Source of the DNA: Yoonia sp.
GTDB lineage: Bacteria > Pseudomonadota > Alphaproteobacteria > Rhodobacterales > Rhodobacteraceae
NCBI GenBank assembly: GCA_020627605.1
Contig: JAHDGO010000086.1
Span: 1 to 7,717, forward strand
Length of the DNA: 7,717 bases
Direction: 5' to 3'
The translations under genes and the position numbers were made by a program. This document shows, piece after piece, positions 1 through 7,717 of this stretch (the first letter of the stretch is position 1; every line of letters starts with the position of its first letter). The notes under the pieces were generated by a model, which did not search any database, was not told where the DNA came from, and saw only the letters and a program-made list of their open reading frames with translations.

Positions 1-989
1 TAGGCAGACAAAGCGCGGGCGACACCGCCGACCAGAAAGATCCCATTGTATGGGAGTTGGATCAGGGCGAGGTTGCCGGCGACGTTGCCCAGGATCTCGA
101 CACAGCTTTGCACTGTTTTTCGCGCGCGCGGATCGCCATCGGCACAGGCCGTCATGATATCTTGCGCAGACATCGACGTTGGGTCTCCGGCTTCCTGTCC
201 CCAGAAACGATAGACGTTTTCGATGCCGCGCCCCGACAGAACGTCCTCGACGGATGGGAAGCCATGCTTCTGCCCAACAAAATCGCTGAGCCGGTCGTGT
301 TCGCCCGAGCGCGTCGATAAGGTGACGTGACCACTTTCAGATGGCGGCACGAGGTGACCTTGCGGAGTGTCGAATACAGGTGCGATGTTGAAGCCCGTGC
401 CAACGCCAATCACAAGGCTTGCCGGTCCTGTCAGTGCCGGCAGGCGCCAGCGCAGCAGCATGGACCCGACCAGCATCATCAGCAGCACAAGCAATGTCAG
501 CAGGCTGGGCGGCAATGGCAGTTGCCCCGCGATCCCACCCGCAAAGGGCACCGCGACACCAACGGCAAGTACCGCCGCGGTTGGCAGGCTTGCCAGTTCA
601 AGCACAGCAGCCCTGGCCACAACCCCATGCGGGACACCCAGTTTCTTGACGTAAAGGTGCCGCCCCACAACGTGCAGCACGTTGCCCGGCAGATATTTGG
701 CAATCTGAGAGCGGGTGTGAGAGAGAAACACCGGGCCCCGTGGCAAGGTCGCATCGGACAGGGCCTGCAGGATCGTGACCCAGTTCTGCGCCAACAGGAC
801 CTGCGCAACGCCATAGCAAAGTGCCGCGGCCGCCACGGCAATCACTTGCTGGGCAGTCGGACGCCAGGACTGAATTCCGCCCCACTGCTGGTAAAGCTCT
901 TTGCCAAGATAGAGCAAGGCAAGGATCGCAATAGCCTGCCCGATCCGACGGACAAGCCGCTGAGATGTGCTGGTTTGCGCAGGTTCCAT
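1..989 (-). CDS. Chimeric ORF: polytopic membrane protein N-terminus fused in frame to glucokinase C-terminal half (partial at left edge)
   Basis: Reading from the ATG at 989, 329 codons stay open to the window edge with no stop. Residues 1-180 look like the start of a lysylphosphatidylglycerol-synthase-like (flippase-type) membrane protein: hydrophobic segments near 14-29, 46-68, 122-150 and 158-179, and the family-like stretch KYLPGNVLHVVGR at 98-110. From about residue 191 the sequence switches to glucokinase (E. coli Glk family): VIGVGTGF (193-200), SESGHVTL (217-224), VEDVLSGRGIENVYR (247-261) and a GNVAGNLAL/FLVGG end. E218, H221 and E248 align with the glucose-binding E157, H160 and E187 of E. 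coli Glk. The Glk N-terminal half is absent, including the DVGGTN phosphate-binding motif and the catalytic Asp (D100 in E. coli), so kinase activity is not expected. It starts 6 bases after the methyltransferase stop with no clear ribosome-binding site. It is either a deletion fusion, effectively two broken genes, or an assembly chimera. Confidence 0.8.
   Translation of the reverse strand, partial: MEPAQTSTSQRLVRRIGQAIAILALLYLGKELYQQWGGIQSWRPTAQQVIAVAAAALCYGVAQVLLAQNWVTILQALSDATLPRGPVFLSHTRSQIAKYLPGNVLHVVGRHLYVKKLGVPHGVVARAAVLELASLPTAAVLAVGVAVPFAGGIAGQLPLPPSLLTLLVLLMMLVGSMLLRWRLPALTGPASLVIGVGTGFNIAPVFDTPQGHLVPPSESGHVTLSTRSGEHDRLSDFVGQKHGFPSVEDVLSGRGIENVYRFWGQEAGDPTSMSAQDIMTACADGDPRARKTVQSCVEILGNVAGNLALIQLPYNGIFLVGGVARALSA
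420..445 (-). other. Apparent junction between membrane-protein and glucokinase coding sequence
   Basis: The last clear membrane-type residues (SMLLRWR, 176-182) and the first clear glucokinase residues (LVIGVGTGF, 192-200) leave the switch at roughly residues 183-190. The plus-strand bases here contain GCCGG twice, at 420-424 and 436-440, a short repeat of the kind that can sit at deletion ends. The breakpoint cannot be fixed more precisely from this sequence alone. Confidence 0.55.
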
Positions 990-995
990 CGGCGC

Positions 996-1721
996 CTAGG
1001 CGTCCGGGCGCTGCAGCAGGGTTGTCTTGTCCGGGTAAGGCAAGGATGGCGTCAATCCCGGCAGATGGGTGACGTCAAATGTGCTGCGGGCGATGGCGTC
1101 CAGATACCGCTGCCGTTTGGTGTTGTCGAAAACAATCATCCCGCCGGGTGCCAGATGTTCCTGTGCCGCCTCAAGACAGGCCGCACGGGCGCGACCATCA
1201 ATGACAATCAGGTCATAGAGCTGATTGGTGGTCGTGATCACCTTGGCGTATTTTTCGAAACTCTGACCTTCATAGCCTTCTTTGTAGGATTGATAGCGCG
1301 GGTCGTTGGACCAGTTTTGATCGGCAGGCATATGCGTCAACGCGATCCCGTCATAGCCGGCAATTCGGTTTTGCATCAGGGCAAGCCAGCCTTCATCATG
1401 CTCGACACTGTGCACCGTCCCGGCACGCCGCGACAGCCAGATGGTGCTCGCCCCGCTGCCGTATTCGAAAACCTTGGCATCCGGGCGGGTGCTGAGAAAG
1501 GCCGCGACCGCATCAATCGCACGATAGGTCCACCAGGGGACATCCAGCGCGATCATCTGATCCACATCATAAATCGCAAACAGCGACCGCAGCCAATGCG
1601 CCCACCGCCTGTCGCGCTTGCGCTCCAACAGACGCAGCACGCCAAGACGGCCCAGTAAGCCACCGATGCCGTGCATAGCGCCAACATAGGCCCGCTTTGC
1701 ATAAAGTTTGATGGCTGGCAT
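996..1721 (-). CDS. Class I SAM-dependent methyltransferase, 241 aa
   Basis: A soluble class I methyltransferase of unknown substrate, similar in layout to the Methyltransf_24/FkbM-like group. The SAM-binding glycine motif I is VFEYGSGAST (84-93), followed by the acidic end of the second strand, VHSVEHD (103-109). A post-motif strand YDLIVIDGRAR lies at 169-179 and the late strand APGGMIVFDN at 191-200. Residues 30-75 are rich in Arg and Trp (KRDRRWAHW, PWWTYRAID), which may form the substrate cap. I chose the ATG at 1721 because AGGAG lies 11 bases upstream (1733-1737). The frame stays open further upstream to 2021, but that extension runs into the tRNA-Lys gene and looks non-coding. It lies 6 bases upstream of the membrane/glucokinase chimera and is probably cotranscribed with it. 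The family call is firm; the substrate is unknown. Confidence 0.82.
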   Translation of the reverse strand: MPAIKLYAKRAYVGAMHGIGGLLGRLGVLRLLERKRDRRWAHWLRSLFAIYDVDQMIALDVPWWTYRAIDAVAAFLSTRPDAKVFEYGSGASTIWLSRRAGTVHSVEHDEGWLALMQNRIAGYDGIALTHMPADQNWSNDPRYQSYKEGYEGQSFEKYAKVITTTNQLYDLIVIDGRARAACLEAAQEHLAPGGMIVFDNTKRQRYLDAIARSTFDVTHLPGLTPSLPYPDKTTLLQRPDA

Positions 1722-1994
1722 GCCTGACCCTACTCCTGATTTGCAAAGACCAACGTGGATCAATGCACAGCCACTCTTGCACGTCTGGCGCATGATGCAA
1801 TGCGCCCCCCGGCATCGCCTGAGATACGGCACCCCCGCGTGAACGGCAAGCACCGCGAGGTGATCGTCAGAATGCGTGGGGACTGTGCGGTAGGTGCGCG
1901 ACTGGATGGGTTCGGGGAAAATGCCACCAACGGGGAGTACAAGCACCACGGCCCAATTGCCGGCCTTTTTCAGCCTGATTGCGTTGAAAGAAAA
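1722..1994. other. Intergenic region between tRNA-Lys and the methyltransferase
   Basis: This region holds no credible gene. Both strands have short open frames, but their composition is unlike protein. It contains the methyltransferase ribosome-binding site (1733-1737), a 7-bp inverted repeat (1787-1806) and a weak minus-strand promoter candidate: TTGCCG at 1844-1849, a 17-base spacer and TATCTC at 1821-1826. The T-rich run just after the tRNA CCA end (minus strand, 1986-1994) may help end the tRNA transcript, but no strong hairpin precedes it. Confidence 0.4.
1787..1806. repeat. 7-bp perfect inverted repeat with 6-base loop
   Basis: GGCGCAT (1787-1793) and ATGCGCC (1800-1806) are perfect inverted copies around six bases. 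No T run follows on either strand, so it does not look like an intrinsic terminator. It would lie in the 5' leader of the methyltransferase transcript, 66-85 bases before the ATG, or could be an operator. Chance occurrence in GC-rich DNA is possible. Confidence 0.35.
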
Positions 1995-2070
1995 TGGTGA
2001 GCCGTGATGGGTTCGAACCATCGACCTACTGATTAAAAGTCAGTTGCTCTACCAACTGAGCTAACGGCCC
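1995..2070 (-). tRNA. tRNA-Lys (anticodon UUU)
   Basis: Read on the minus strand from 2070, the acceptor arm GGGCCGT pairs with ACGGCTC (one G-U pair). The D arm is GCTCAGTTGGTAGAGC. The anticodon stem ACTGA/TCAGT encloses the loop CTTTTAA, giving anticodon TTT. The T arm carries the invariant GGTTCGAACC. The discriminator base is A, as expected for lysine tRNAs, and CCA is encoded (1995-1997). A T-rich tract follows the 3' end. It is divergent from dapF. Confidence 0.97.
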
Positions 2071-2080
2071 ACTGGCGCGC

Positions 2081-2109
2081 TACTTAGAAAGGGCGCGGGC
2101 GCGGGTCAA
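2081..2109 (-). promoter_or_regulatory. Candidate sigma-70 promoter for tRNA-Lys
   Basis: On the minus strand, TTGACC (2104-2109) is followed by a 17-base spacer and TAAGTA (2081-2086), or by TCTAAG at 2083-2088 with a 15-base spacer. The -35 match is good; the -10 is weak. The position places the start of transcription within a few bases of the mature tRNA 5' end at 2070. Confidence 0.45.
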
Positions 2110-2130
2110 CCCCCAAATGCGGCGCGGTGC

Positions 2131-2159
2131 TGGATAGTTTGTCTGTCCTCGCCTATATC
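2131..2159 (+). promoter_or_regulatory. Weak candidate promoter for the dapF-mtaB-GST operon
   Basis: TGGATA (2131-2136), a 17-base spacer and TATATC (2154-2159) each match four of six sigma-70 consensus positions. The expected start of transcription, about seven bases after the -10, falls on the first A of the ATGATG at 2166. That would give a leaderless mRNA, which fits the absence of a ribosome-binding site there. Confidence 0.3.
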
Positions 2160-2165
2160 GCGGCC

Positions 2166-2984
2166 ATGATGACGGGCGACTCGACATATCTGCCATTCAT
2201 GAAGATGCATGGGCTGGGAAACGACTTTGTTGTCGTGGATGAACGCGGCGTGACGCCACGCGTTGATGCGGCTGTGGCCGTGGCCATTGCGGACCGTCAC
2301 CGGGGCGTCGGGTTTGACCAGCTTGCGGTGCTGTCGGACACGGCGGATGCCGACGTCCACCTGACCTTCTACAATAGTGACGGGTCGACCTCGGCCGCTT
2401 GCGGCAATGCCACCCGCTGCATTGCGCGGCATCTGATGGACCAGACCGGGCGGACCGCACTGACCCTGATCACCGATCGCGGCACGCTTCATGCACTGGA
2501 TGCCGGGGGTGGGCTGACGGCGGTCAATATGGGCCAGCCGCAGCTCGACTGGCAGGATATTCCGCTGGCGCATGAGATGGATACGCTTGCATTGCCTATT
2601 GATGGCGCACCCGTCGCCACCGGCATGGGCAACCCGCATTGCACCTTCTTTGTCGATGATGCAGATGCCGTCGACCTTGCCCAGCGCGGCGCAGAGATAG
2701 AGCATCACCCCCTCTACCCGCAGCGTACCAATGTGCAGTTTGCGGGCCTTATTGGCCCCAATCACCTGCGCATGCGGGTGTGGGAGCGTGGCGTGGGTAT
2801 CACCCTTGCCTCCGGTTCGTCCTCATGCGCTGTGGCTGTTGCGGCAGCCCGGCGGGCGCTGACCGGGCGCGATGTTACAATTGATCTGGATGGTGGCACA
2901 CTGCAGGTCAGCTGGCGCGACGATGGCGTCTGGATGACTGGCCCAACAGCCCATGTCTTTGATGGCCAATGGCGGCTGACATGA
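2166..2984 (+). CDS. dapF: Diaminopimelate epimerase-like protein DapF, with Ser at the second catalytic Cys
   Basis: DapF interconverts LL- and meso-diaminopimelate for lysine and peptidoglycan synthesis in the cytosol. Numbered from the ATG at 2166 (272 aa), the protein has the N-terminal KMHGLGNDF (13-21), the first active-site signature [15 protein letters not shown] (70-84, C79 = C73 of the H. influenzae enzyme), GNPHC (155-159) and the ER pair at 207-208. The second motif, normally ACGSGAC, reads ASGSSSC (215-221). S216, codon TCC at 2811-2813, therefore replaces the cysteine equivalent to C217; C221 is retained. The nearby Glu of GET is also Ile (I212). Everything else is full length and family-like. 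The start is uncertain: a GTG at 2127 would add 13 residues, and ATGs at 2169 or 2199 would also preserve the fold. No ribosome-binding site is visible. The stop overlaps mtaB by four bases. Confidence 0.9.
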
Positions 2985-4240
2985 CCGGCGCACCAATCTT
3001 TTCCAATCATGGCTGCCGGTTGAACGCCTATGAAACCGCTGCCATGCAGGAACTGGCCGCGGGTGCTGGCGTCGGTAACGCGGTGATCGTGAACACCTGT
3101 GCCGTGACGGCAGAGGCCGTGCGCAAGGCCCGCCAGGACATCCGCAAGTTGCGCCGCGACAACCCCGATGCCAGGCTGATCGTCACCGGTTGCGCCGCCC
3201 AGACAGAGCCGGAAACCTTTGCCCAGATGGCCGAGGTTGATGTGGTCCTTGGCAACACTGAAAAGATGAACCCGGCCACCTGGGCGGGCCTTACCCCTGA
3301 TCTGATTGGCGCGACAGAGCCGGTGCAGGTCGACGACATCATGTCGGTGACTGAAACCGCTGGCCACCTGATTGACGGCTTTGGCACCCGCAGCCGGGCC
3401 TATGTGCAGGTCCAGAACGGCTGCGACCACCGCTGTACCTTTTGCATTATCCCTTTCGGGCGCGGCAATTCGCGGTCGGTGCCTGCGGGCGTCGTGGTCG
3501 ACCAGATCAAGCGGCTGGTGGACAAAGGCTTCAACGAGGTCGTGCTGACAGGTGTGGACCTGACCAGTTGGGGGGCCGACCTGCCGGGCGCGCCGAAACT
3601 GGGCGATCTGGTCATGCGCATCCTCAAACTCGTGCCCGACCTGCCGCGCCTGCGGATATCATCCATCGACAGTATTGAGGTTGATGAAAACCTCATGCAG
3701 GCCATCGCGACCGAACCGCGCCTGATGCCGCATCTGCATTTGTCGCTGCAACATGGCGACGACCTGATCCTGAAGCGAATGAAACGGCGGCATTTGCGCG
3801 ATGACGCAGTCCGGTTCTGCGAAGAGGCCCAGCGCCTGCGCCCCGACATGACCTTCGGGGCCGATATCATCGCCGGTTTCCCGACAGAGACCGCGGCGGC
3901 GTTTGAGAATTCAATGCGGCTGGTGGACGACTGCAATCTGACCTGGCTGCATGTCTTTCCTTATTCCCCCCGTCCCGGCACGCCCGCCGCGCGGATGCCC
4001 CAGGTGAATGGCCGTGCGATCAAGGATCGCGCCGCACATCTGCGCGCAGCTGGTGAGGCACGTGTTGCAGCCCATCTGCAAGCCCAGAAAGGCAAGACGC
4101 ATCGCGTCCTGCTGGAAAATCCCCGCATGGGCCGGACAGAGCAGTTTGCCGAAGTGAGTTTCGCCAGCGACCAGCCTGAAAGCCAGATCGTGACCGCCAC
4201 GATCACCGGGGTTGCGGGCCATCAGCTGACCGCGGCCTGA
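2981..4240 (+). CDS. mtaB: tRNA (N6-L-threonylcarbamoyladenosine(37)-C2)-methylthiotransferase MtaB
   Basis: MtaB is a radical-SAM iron-sulfur enzyme that adds a methylthio group to t6A37 of tRNAs reading ANN codons. The 419-aa protein has the expected order: an N-terminal UPF0004 domain with cluster cysteines C12 (GCRLN), C40 (VNTCAV) and C71 (VTGCAAQ); a radical-SAM core whose CxxxCxxC is C148-C152-C155 in [12 protein letters not shown]; later core motifs [22 protein letters not shown] and [10 protein letters not shown]; and a C-terminal TRAM-like domain from about residue 365. I chose the ATG at 2981, which shares ATGA with the dapF stop and suggests translational coupling. An in-frame ATG at 2969 would add four residues. 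The motif spacing favours MtaB over MiaB or RimO. It is probably cotranscribed with dapF and the two GST genes. Confidence 0.93.
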
Positions 4241-4872
4241 TGGGCGATTTGCCGATCCTGTGGTCGTTCCGTCGTTGCCCCTATGCCATGCGCGCGCGGC
4301 TGGCGATCCAGTCCAGCGGTCAACAGGTGGCACTGCAGGAAATCCTGCTGAAGGACAAACCTGACGCCTTTCGCGCAGCCTCTGCCAAAGCCACTGTGCC
4401 GGTGCTGCAGGACGGCGCGCAGGTGATCGACGAAAGCCGCGATGTCATGCTTTGGGCGCTGGAACGATCCGACCCCGAAGGCTGGCTGGACATGGCCGAT
4501 GAAGGGTGCGCCCTGATTGATCGCTGCGACGGGCCGTTCAAGACGGCACTCGATCACACCAAATACGCAGTGCGCTTTCCCGATCTGGATGAGGAGGCAG
4601 AGCGCGAAAAGGCGATGGTGTTCTTGCGCGACCTTAATGACAGGCTGACAGATGCGCCGTTCCTGATGGGGCGCAGCCGGACGATGGCCGATATGGCGAT
4701 CCTGCCGTTTGTGCGCCAGTTCGCCAATACGGACCGTGCATGGTTCGATGCGCAGGGCCTTGGCCCGCTGACCCGCTGGCTGGATGATTTTCTGAACGCG
4801 GACAGGTTCCGGGCGATCATGGTGAAATATCCGCCTTGGCAACCGGGACAGGATCAGGTTGTCTTTCCCTGA
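4240..4872 (+). CDS. Glutathione S-transferase-family protein (CPYA motif), 210 aa
   Basis: A thioredoxin-fold protein with GST layout. The N-terminal domain (about 1-80) has SFRRCPYAMRARLAI near residues 9-23, a glutaredoxin-like C-P-Y-A motif with a single thiol (C13), then TVPVLQDGAQVIDES, the cis-Pro and glutathione gamma-glutamyl-binding region typical of GSTs. The C-terminal part (about 85-210) is helical, with the N-capping-type motif RTMADMAILPFVRQF. The single active-site Cys suggests an omega/beta-like or monothiol role (glutathione-dependent reduction or deglutathionylation) rather than classical conjugation; that is inference. Its ATG overlaps the mtaB stop as TGATG, so translation is probably coupled. 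The substrate is unknown. Confidence 0.85.
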   Translation: MGDLPILWSFRRCPYAMRARLAIQSSGQQVALQEILLKDKPDAFRAASAKATVPVLQDGAQVIDESRDVMLWALERSDPEGWLDMADEGCALIDRCDGPFKTALDHTKYAVRFPDLDEEAEREKAMVFLRDLNDRLTDAPFLMGRSRTMADMAILPFVRQFANTDRAWFDAQGLGPLTRWLDDFLNADRFRAIMVKYPPWQPGQDQVVFP

Positions 4873-4890
4873 CCTTGGAAAGGAAACACC

Positions 4891-5493
4891 ATGCAATTGC
4901 TGATCTCTCCGGCCTCACCCTTCGTGCGCAAGGTGCGCGTGCTGCTGCGCGAGGCAGATTTGATGGACACGGTGGAAGAGGTTGTCGTCTCGACCACGCC
5001 GATGAACTCTGCGTCAGAGGTTGTCGCGGCCAACCCGATGGGCAAGATCCCCGCGCTGATCCGGCCAGATGGTCCGGCGATCTACGACAGCCGGGTGATC
5101 ACCCGGTTTCTGGATGATCACGCAGGTGCCGGCCTTTACCCGCAAAGTCGCATCTGGGAAATCCTGACGCTGGAGGCGACCGCCGATGCCATCATGGATG
5201 CGACTGTCAGCATGGCCTATGAGGTGCGCCTGCGCCCGGAAGAGCAGCAATCACCAGACTGGATAGAGGCACAATGGGCCAAGGCCGCCCGTGGCATTGC
5301 CGCTGTCAACAACCGCTGGATGTCACATCTGACCGGGCCGCTGAATATCGGGCAGATCGGCATGGCCTGCGCGCTGTCCTATATCGACCTGCGCCATGAT
5401 GCGCGCGGCTGGCGCGATGGAAATGCAGCCCTTGCCGAATGGCATGCCGCCTTCAGCGCGCGTGACAGTATGGTGTCTACCAAACCCGCGTGA
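4891..5493 (+). CDS. Glutathione S-transferase-family protein, YibF-like, 200 aa
   Basis: A second GST-fold protein, resembling E. coli YibF throughout. Its N-terminus SPASPFVRKVRVLL (6-19) matches the YibF SPFVRK motif, in which Ser/Pro replaces a redox cysteine pair. ANPMGKIPALIRPDG (47-61) is the cis-Pro region and IYDSRVITRFLD (63-74) carries the Asp-Ser glutathione contact. The C-terminal helical domain has EATADAIMDA and LNIGQIGMACALSYIDLR, close to YibF. AGGA at 4881-4884, six bases before the ATG, gives a good ribosome-binding site. It follows the first GST gene by 18 bases. The two GSTs are clearly different subfamilies rather than a recent duplication. YibF function is not established, so only glutathione binding is predicted. 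Confidence 0.87.
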   Translation: MQLLISPASPFVRKVRVLLREADLMDTVEEVVVSTTPMNSASEVVAANPMGKIPALIRPDGPAIYDSRVITRFLDDHAGAGLYPQSRIWEILTLEATADAIMDATVSMAYEVRLRPEEQQSPDWIEAQWAKAARGIAAVNNRWMSHLTGPLNIGQIGMACALSYIDLRHDARGWRDGNAALAEWHAAFSARDSMVSTKPA

Positions 5494-6138
5494 TCAAAAA
5501 TCGAAGCTGACCCCGACATTCACCGCATTGGTGATAATGTCCGTCTCTAACGTGCCGCCGGATTCCAGATCGGCGGTATTGGCGGAATAGGTGCCTTTGT
5601 ATTCACCAAAGACCGACCACTGATCGTTGATCGGCATGGACGCCCCGGCGATCCATGTCGCGGCAGGCCCGGTCACCTGATATCCAAATGTCTCTGACGC
5701 GCCATTTGTCAGCTCTACATGAGGCAGCGACAGGCCAAGCCCGCCGCCCACATAAGGCGTGATCGATCCCGCGACAGGTGCCCAGCGCCGGTAGGCATTG
5801 ACCGTCAGCGTATTCAAACCGTCCGTCAGCTCCAGCACCTCATAGCCCGCTGGCAGTTCATCGCCTTCGGGGTAGACCTTGTTATGCGCGAAATCGAGGC
5901 CATAGCCAAAATCAGGGCTTTGCCAGCGTGTGGCGCGAATACCGTAGTAAGGCGGTGCCTCAAAGGACCGGCCTTCCCAACTCAGGGTAAAGTCATCGTC
6001 GCCAATGCTGTCATCACGAATCGCAATATCGGATGGCTGTGCAGTCTGGACGCCGCCGTAGAAGCTCAACTGCACCTCTGCCGGGGCAGAAGCGGGAACA
6101 GACATCGCTGCAAGGCAGAAGGCAAAGGCGCGGTTCAT
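5494..6138 (-). CDS. Outer-membrane beta-barrel protein, lipid A oxidase (LpxQ)-like, 214 aa
   Basis: The predicted precursor has a signal peptide (MNRAFAFCLAAMSVPASAPA, cleavage after A20), followed by alternating, aromatic- and glycine-rich strands and a terminal Phe (GVSFDF-COOH), the classic outer-membrane barrel signature. Recognisable stretches are WEGRSFEAPPYYGIRATRW (54-72), LELTDGLNTLTVNAYRRW (102-119), TPYVGGGLGLSLPHVEL (127-143), VFGEYKGTYS (176-185) and LETDIITNAVNVG (197-209). Rhodobacteraceae proteins with this pattern are commonly named after rhizobial LpxQ, which oxidises the proximal glucosamine of lipid A. I infer the family by memory; catalytic activity is not shown. The ATG at 6138 puts the signal peptide at the N-terminus; the frame is open to 6207 upstream. 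Its stop codon directly abuts the stop of the second GST gene. Confidence 0.78.
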   Translation of the reverse strand: MNRAFAFCLAAMSVPASAPAEVQLSFYGGVQTAQPSDIAIRDDSIGDDDFTLSWEGRSFEAPPYYGIRATRWQSPDFGYGLDFAHNKVYPEGDELPAGYEVLELTDGLNTLTVNAYRRWAPVAGSITPYVGGGLGLSLPHVELTNGASETFGYQVTGPAATWIAGASMPINDQWSVFGEYKGTYSANTADLESGGTLETDIITNAVNVGVSFDF

Positions 6139-6175
6139 CAATACCGGTCCATCGGTCAGGGTGGTGCTAGGCGCT

Positions 6176-6203
6176 ATTAGAATGGGCCCTATGATCGTTA
6201 CAA
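6176..6203 (-). promoter_or_regulatory. Candidate promoter for the outer-membrane barrel gene
   Basis: On the minus strand, TTGTAA (6198-6203), a 16-base spacer and TCTAAT (6176-6181) match four and five of six sigma-70 positions. Transcription would start near 6169, leaving a leader of about 30 bases before the ATG at 6138. Confidence 0.45.
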
Positions 6204-6210
6204 CCACTGA

Positions 6211-6225
6211 TTAAGGTGGAATTAA
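6211..6225. promoter_or_regulatory. Candidate CtrA-binding site (TTAA-N7-TTAA)
   Basis: TTAA at 6211-6214 and 6222-6225 are exactly seven bases apart, the consensus spacing for the alphaproteobacterial cell-cycle/motility regulator CtrA. In direct-repeat terms, ATTAAG occurs twice 11 bases apart, on the same face of the helix. Its centre is about 49 bases before the predicted barrel-gene transcription start, a position suitable for activation. AT-rich words are rare in this GC-rich window, which supports the call. Confidence 0.45.
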
Positions 6226-6243
6226 GCCACCCGGGCCACTGTA

Positions 6244-6266
6244 ACCTGCACGCCACAATTGCAGGT
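6244..6266. repeat. 7-bp inverted repeat, operator-like
   Basis: ACCTGCA (6244-6250) and TGCAGGT (6260-6266) are perfect inverted copies with a 9-base spacer. The half-sites are 16 bases apart centre to centre, as for a dimeric regulator. It lies about 40 bases upstream of the -35 of the barrel-gene promoter candidate. No T run follows, so it is not a terminator. The bound protein is unknown. Confidence 0.35.
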
Positions 6267-6470
6267 CAACATGGGAATTTTTCCGCCTATTGCAGCGGTT
6301 TATCGGCGAAATATTGTGCATGTCAGGTCAGCATCCCTGCGCCCTGATGTCTCGAATCGTTGGGCAGCTGTCAGGATCGCACCGACCGGCCGTCAGGCCA
6401 GCCCGTCACCGCAACGCGGATATTTCCAGTAAAGTGAGGCACCTGCGCCCGAATGTCCGCTGGACCTCGT

Positions 6471-6491
6471 GCTGTTTGATAGCTAAACAGC
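6471..6491. repeat. Palindrome just upstream of the petA promoter candidate
   Basis: GCTGTTT (6471-6477) and AAACAGC (6485-6491) form a perfect 7-bp inverted repeat with a 7-base centre. It ends six bases before the -35 candidate at 6498, where an activator or repressor of the bc1 operon could bind. The candidate regulator cannot be named from sequence. A hairpin role is less likely because no T run follows. Confidence 0.4.
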
Positions 6492-6497
6492 GCCAAA

Positions 6498-6525
6498 TTG
6501 ACCATGAAAGGCAGCGTTCTAGTCT
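6498..6525 (+). promoter_or_regulatory. Candidate promoter of the petAB operon
   Basis: TTGACC (6498-6503), a 16-base spacer and TAGTCT (6520-6525) form a plausible alphaproteobacterial housekeeping promoter, strong at -35 and weak at -10. Transcription would begin near 6532, giving a leader of about 40 bases before the petA GTG. Confidence 0.45.
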
Positions 6526-6556
6526 TTCAACCAGGGCCAGACGCCCCGGACAGGAA

Positions 6557-6574
6557 ACGGAGATGTAAATCGTG
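6557..6574 (+). promoter_or_regulatory. petA ribosome-binding site and GTG start
   Basis: ACGGAG (6557-6562) lies nine bases before the GTG at 6572, which begins [14 protein letters not shown], the expected Rieske N-terminus. An ATG at 6563 directly abuts the site but is followed at once by TAA, so it cannot be the start. Confidence 0.75.
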
Positions 6575-7129
6575 TCACATGCAGACGATCATCAAGGCAC
6601 CCGCCGCGACTTTCTTTACTACGCCACCGCTGGCGCAGGTGTTGTCGCCACCGGTGCTGCGGTCTGGCCGCTCGTCAACCAGATGAACCCTTCCGCGGAT
6701 GTTCTGGCATTGGCCTCCATCCGGGTTGATGTCAGCCTTGTCGATCCCGGCACACAGATCACCGTGCTGTGGCAGGGCAAACCTGTCTTTATCCGGTCAC
6801 GCACCGAAGAAGAGATTGCCGAGGCCCGTGCTGTCGATGTCAGCGACCTGCCGGACGCAGACGCCAACAACGAGAACATCGGCGCCGCACCGGCCACCGA
6901 CGAAAACCGCGCCCTGTCCGAAGACGGGCAATGGCTGGTTCAGATGGGTGTCTGCACGCACCTGGGCTGTGTGCCATTGGGCGATGCCGGCGATTTCGGC
7001 GGCTGGTTCTGCCCTTGCCACGGGTCGCACTACGACACATCCGGCCGCATCCGCAAAGGGCCTGCACCACGTAACCTGCCCGTCCCCGTCGCCTCTTTCG
7101 TCGACGAAACAACTATTCAGCTCGGTTAA
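6572..7129 (+). CDS. petA: Rieske iron-sulfur subunit of cytochrome bc1 (ubiquinol-cytochrome c reductase)
   Basis: This 185-aa subunit carries electrons from ubiquinol at the Qo site to cytochrome c1. It has a twin-arginine N-terminus (R11-R12 in [14 protein letters not shown]) with a single membrane anchor at about 15-34, kept uncleaved as in other bc1 Rieske proteins. A hinge ([15 protein letters not shown], 36-50) and the periplasmic cluster domain follow. Cluster motifs are VCTHLGC (127-133) and [10 protein letters not shown] (146-155): C128, H130, C147 and H150 bind the 2Fe-2S centre, and C133/C149 form the disulfide. The loop between the motifs is two residues shorter than I recall for R. 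sphaeroides. GTG is the start, with a good ribosome-binding site. The stop TAA overlaps the petB ribosome-binding site, so the genes are cotranscribed. All catalytic residues are present. Confidence 0.97.
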
Positions 7130-7141
7130 GGAGAGAAAACC

Positions 7142-7717
7142 ATGGGTGGCATTCCTCACGACCATTATGAACCCAAGACCGGCGGCGAGAAGTGGCTGCA
7201 CAAGCGCCTGCCGATTGCCGGTCTGCTTTACGACACATTGATGATCCCCACGCCCAAGAACCTGAACTGGATGTGGATCTGGGGGATCGTGCTGGTCTTT
7301 ACGCTGGTCCTGCAAATCGTCACCGGCATCGTGCTGGTGATGCACTATGTGCCGCATGTCGATATGGCCTTCGCCTCGGTTGAGCATATCATGCGCGACG
7401 TGAACGGCGGCCATATGATCCGTTATTTCCACATGAACGGCGCATCGCTGTTCTTTGTGGCGGTCTATCTGCACATCTTCCGCTCGCTTTACTACGGGTC
7501 CTACAAGGCCCCGCGTGAAGTGACATGGATCATCGGCATGCTGATGTATCTGCTGATGATGGGCACCGCCTTTATGGGTTACGTGCTGCCTTGGGGGCAG
7601 ATGTCCTTCCACGGGACAGCTGTGATCACCGGCCTGTTTGGCGCCATCCCCTTTGTGGGTGACAGCGTGCAGACATGGCTGCTGGGTGCCTCGGCTGTGG
7701 GTCAGCCTGCGCTGAAC
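7142..7717 (+). CDS. petB: Cytochrome b of the bc1 complex (N-terminal 192 residues; cut by right edge)
   Basis: The haem-bearing core subunit that oxidises ubiquinol at Qo and reduces quinone at Qi. AAGGAGAG at 7128-7135, overlapping the petA stop, provides the ribosome-binding site for the ATG at 7142. The protein follows R. sphaeroides cytochrome b with the same numbering: [10 protein letters not shown] start, helix A (about 44-68), and haem ligands H97 (RYFHMNG) and H111 (YLHIFR) in helix B. Helix C ends in [11 protein letters not shown]. The other two ligands, expected near 198 and 212, lie beyond the edge. The segment 155-163 reads SFHGTAVIT instead of the widely conserved SFWGATVIT, so W157 is His and A159-T160 are swapped. 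Also, 182-189 reads GASAVGQP instead of the usual GGPAVDN-type loop. petC probably follows outside the window. Confidence 0.97.

Follow-up and report, generated by a model that had tools for sequence, protein, structure and literature searches.

An in-frame joining of membrane-protein and glucokinase sequence at the end of a Yoonia contig is best explained as an assembly chimera

In a draft genome of a Yoonia species, one contig ends inside an open reading frame that passes from a membrane protein into a glucokinase, which raises the question of whether this frame is a new protein architecture, the mark of a lost glucokinase or no feature of the organism at all. The window analysed here is the entire contig (C330, 7,717 bases) of a 2.57 Mb draft in 488 contigs, estimated to be 72% complete with low contamination (0.17%). 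The frame occupies the minus strand from position 989 to position 3, begins with an ATG at 989, contains the motif KYLPGNV and runs for 329 codons without a stop to the contig end, where it remains open, as a preliminary description of this DNA had reported. That description also counted four hydrophobic segments; a Kyte–Doolittle scan bears out the hydrophobicity but not the exact count, giving two blocks at residues 48–68 and 123–184, the second long enough to hold several helices. The explanation that we favor, with a probability of roughly 0.93, is an assembly chimera in which a piece of glucokinase gene (glk) resembling that of another species was joined to a membrane-protein gene at the contig end. 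The frame is real as sequence, and the fusion is most likely no feature of any organism. In the list below, P0001 and P0002 are the intact membrane-protein and glucokinase parents, which were the two best matches of the frame in a predicted-protein search, and G020 is another genome of the same genus (MAG-191 RZ_2006, public record JAHDEX010000030.1).

1–429, minus strand: internal part of a glucokinase gene, putatively a foreign piece; 421 of 429 bases identical to the intact glk on G020 contig C42, and 139 of 142 residues identical to P0002

408–429, minus strand: junction word AGGACCGGCAAGCCTTGTGATT, which reads GPASLVI and is the longest DNA that the two parents can share; the same 22-mer occurs in G020 glk, and the heptapeptide is present at this place in each of P0001 and P0002

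408–989, minus strand: 5′ part (residues 1–194) of an LPG_synthase_TM-like membrane-protein gene, truncated at the joint; 190 of 196 residues identical to P0001

996–1721, minus strand: Methyltransf_24 gene (Pfam PF13578, 1.4e-8), a conserved neighbor of the membrane-protein gene

Comparison of the frame with its parents locates the change from one to the other within one short stretch. Identity to P0001 (299 amino acids) holds over residues 1–196 and collapses to 7 of 103 beyond, and the match to P0002 (322 amino acids) begins at GPASLVI, with only 3 of 60 residues identical before it. The two halves were run separately against protein families, as the preliminary description had proposed. 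Frame residues 191–326 match the Pfam Glucokinase family (PF02685, 2e-28) at model positions 128–265 of 314 only, and Pfam gives no match for the membrane half by itself. The glucokinase piece is thus an internal stretch of an ordinary bacterial glucokinase (PF02685, TIGR00749) corresponding to P0002 residues 132–273, and differs from that family in that residues 1–131 and 274–322 have no counterpart on the contig. The motif ESGH, which we take to hold the glucose-binding Glu/His positions, is kept at frame residue 218. DIGGTN (P0002 residue 12) and NDLQAQ (P0002 residue 103), presumably the phosphate-binding motif and the region of the catalytic Asp, are missing because both lie upstream of the joint, so that the frame lacks a full PF02685 domain with these two elements. 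The earlier account of which glucokinase residues are kept and lost therefore stands, but its term "C-terminal half" does not fit an internal piece that stops at base 1 because the contig stops there.

The membrane side is the first two-thirds of a gene with a weak family assignment. P0001 matches LPG_synthase_TM (PF03706) weakly, at 18.6 bits against a curated cut-off of 33.4, so neither it nor the matchless window half scores above that threshold; three (P0121, P0122 and P0127) of its seven closest listed relatives (P0121–P0127) carry PF03706, and NCBIfam gives P0001 a weak MprF hint and nothing else. Frame residues 1–194 resemble LPG_synthase_TM/UPF0104-like proteins through P0001, which itself scores below the Pfam cut-off, and the window copy differs in being without the last third. 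The gene is patchily distributed, with P0001 matches in 8 of 56 genus genomes including the host (7 of the 55 others): relatives over nearly the entire length at 44–51% identity occur in five genomes, weaker matches occur in G079 (35%) and G012 (27%), and the genus-genome search found none in G020. Among the five genomes with 44–51% matches, a count that leaves out G079 and G012, the membrane-protein gene adjoins a methyltransferase gene in four (G008, G023, G031 and, by coordinates, G065), which is also the arrangement in the window; G004 is the exception. The Methyltransf_24 and LPG_synthase_TM-like pair (window 408–1721) is thus kept in those four genomes. A listed 341-residue frame at 996–2021 (start at 2021) overruns a tRNA-Lys gene, and a methyltransferase start near 1721 is more likely.

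DNA comparison with G020 sets the glucokinase piece apart from everything else examined in the host. Window positions 1–429 are 98% identical to the intact G020 glk and the match ends at 429; in ungapped 33-base bins, 31–33 bases are identical up to that position and 5–12 from 430 to 660, where the bins examined end. Window positions 430–1993 have no match in G020. The rest of the window gives five long alignments at 69–79% identity and four short ones (49–108 bases) at 73–84%. As a further baseline for host–G020 identity we used two other host contigs drawn from two sets of ten stretches, C150 (20,000 bases) and C310 (8,895 bases; 28.9 kb together), which gave 4 and 14 matches to G020 (18 in all) at 65–87%, the highest only 39 bases long. 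Because the remainder of the window and both of these contigs match G020 at lower identity, the glucokinase piece is an outlier, and a slowly evolving gene does not account for its 98%, since glk proteins of 28 other relatives are only 57–61% identical to that of G020. The two sides of the joint thus have their matches in different genomes, with an abrupt change from one to the other, and this change supports assembly chimerism, which the preliminary description had listed among its options.

Beyond the methyltransferase gene, window 1995–7717 carries unremarkable genes whose order is shared with G020 contig C86. These are tRNA-Lys, diaminopimelate epimerase, a UPF0004/Radical_SAM protein, two genes for GST, one for an outer membrane protein, and those for a Rieske protein and cytochrome b. 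The shared order breaks off where C86 ends, next to tRNA-Lys, so that C86 does not show the membrane-gene site. The OMP_b-brl gene is single here (5494–6141, frame open to 6207), and at the same place G020 has two tandem copies (L052:6710–8041).

At the joint, the parents share a short word and diverge on both sides of it. GPASLVI occupies residues 188–194 of P0001 and 132–138 of P0002, so a shared word is seen at the protein level in both. The shared DNA can be no longer than the 22 bases at 408–429, because residue 195 is Phe in P0001 but Gly in the frame, and because the base before AGGACC differs between the window and the glucokinase gene. This interval overlaps 420–445, where the preliminary description had sought the joint. 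The 22-mer occurs once in each of the two genomes (host draft and G020). The host's membrane-protein gene likely holds the same 22-base word, a reading that rests on P0001, which is known as a protein. By chance, two genomes of 2.57 and 4.3 Mb would be expected to share 1.25 (uniform base frequencies) to 2.58 (by composition) 22-mers, and 5 to 10 21-mers. Assemblers commonly take 21 as their smallest default word size. Both genes read the shared word in one and the same frame, which keeps the fusion open across the joint.

These observations suggest a route to the fusion. The host membrane-protein gene would spell GPASLVI with the same codons as G020 glk. Where two genomes have a word in common, an assembler built on words can cross from one into the other; the assembly graph, or alternatively a chimeric library molecule, would then have joined the two genomes at no more than 22 shared bases. 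In the cell, the membrane-protein gene would continue to about 299 residues, and the glucokinase gene, if present, would lie elsewhere. One review describes how k-mers shared by closely related species often link their assembly graphs, with possible chimeric contigs as a consequence (PMC7299287), and a study of simulated viral metagenomes states that chimeras were ubiquitous in its assemblies (PMC3901335). The present case resembles such inter-genome chimeras of metagenome assembly in its two-genome parents, its abrupt switch in similarity, its position at a contig end and the short shared word at its joint, seen here at the protein level. It differs in that the word is a heptapeptide coincidence in unrelated genes and not part of a conserved gene of related species. 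Against a chimera stand the low estimated contamination of the draft and the remainder of the membrane-protein gene, which was not found on another contig of the host draft, a result that weighs little at 72% completeness.

The best-surviving alternative is real recombination, in which a piece of glk from a species resembling G020 entered the membrane-protein gene by an illegitimate join at the short word and produced a true in-frame fusion. Short shared words can guide natural recombination too, the frame is open through the joint, and the C-terminal part of the membrane-protein gene is not elsewhere in the draft. We nevertheless consider this improbable: the foreign piece runs exactly to the contig end, nothing else of the donor neighborhood matches the host genome, none of 55 other genus genomes and none of 44 proteins has a match through the join, and the product would be without large parts of both proteins. 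The specific version of a very recent event, in which a related species' glk fragment recombined at the 22-base word to yield a membrane-anchored half glucokinase, we judge very improbable.

A deletion between two neighboring codirectional genes, the simplest reading in the preliminary description, accords with both parts lying on the same strand in one frame, but gene order in relatives leaves it hardly any room. In 29 of 29 loci (L006–L034, G020 included), glk has a beta-glucosidase gene on one side and a histidine kinase gene on the other; these loci represent one per genome and come from the best 30 loci (host included) of 42 matching genomes among 60. With three wider cuts of the same genomes (L057–L059) these make 32 loci of 2.7–12 kb; the histidine kinase is beside glk in all 32, as read from the locus gene rows, and no P0001 relative occurs in any. 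Both genes could be placed in six genomes, and they are neighbors in none of these. In G004, G008, G023 and G012 (the last with a weak membrane match) the two sit on different contigs; in G031 some 1.18 Mb separates them, and in G079, where the membrane-gene relative is 35% identical, they share a contig at a distance of some 31 kb. This count leaves out G065, where glk was not placed, and G014, whose match (24% identity, E 7.8e-4, on a contig other than that of glk) was unconfirmed by a second search. The intact adjacency that the preliminary description had proposed to look for is therefore not seen, and the glucokinase piece, at 98% identity, groups with G020, another species. We reject a deletion between neighbors on gene order.

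Equally far-fetched is a conserved, undescribed family of membrane-tethered sugar-binding fusions, for which the single open frame speaks and nothing further: among the 120 proteins listed of 1,227 that match the whole frame, 119 are PF02685 proteins with 41–47% coverage and the remaining one, with 62%, matches on the membrane side, and a search with residues 150–240 returned 44 proteins, the best covering 67% of that stretch and none running through the joint. A 29-mer across the joint occurs in 6 of 98 loci, all six being cuts of C330, with no independent occurrence. No second architecture of this kind thus appeared in an independent genome among the 120 listed matches, the 44 proteins and the 56 genus genomes including the host, and the fusion-family reading was rejected.

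The preliminary description had further said that such a fusion would normally mean loss of this glucokinase, and had suggested looking for a second glk in the genome. C330 was the sole PF02685 match in the host draft, with three other ROK-family matches on C299, C44 and C338. Across 8.7 kb around the G020 glk, a DNA search, which can miss diverged genes, found no other match in the host genome, and the draft seems to have no counterpart of its own to the glk region; the absence of an intact glk from the draft would follow from this apparent gap. Since the draft is 72% complete, the contig ends inside the gene and the whole glk neighborhood is seemingly missing, loss is not inferable, and we reject it as a reading of the frame.

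An assembly chimera remains the preferred reading, and under it neither a new protein architecture nor a glucokinase loss should be annotated from this frame. The locus may serve as a worked example. Between genomes of 2.6 and 4.3 Mb, chance is expected to supply one to three shared words of about 22 bases, and such a word can produce an uninterrupted in-frame fusion where a contig ends, provided that the two genes read it in one frame.
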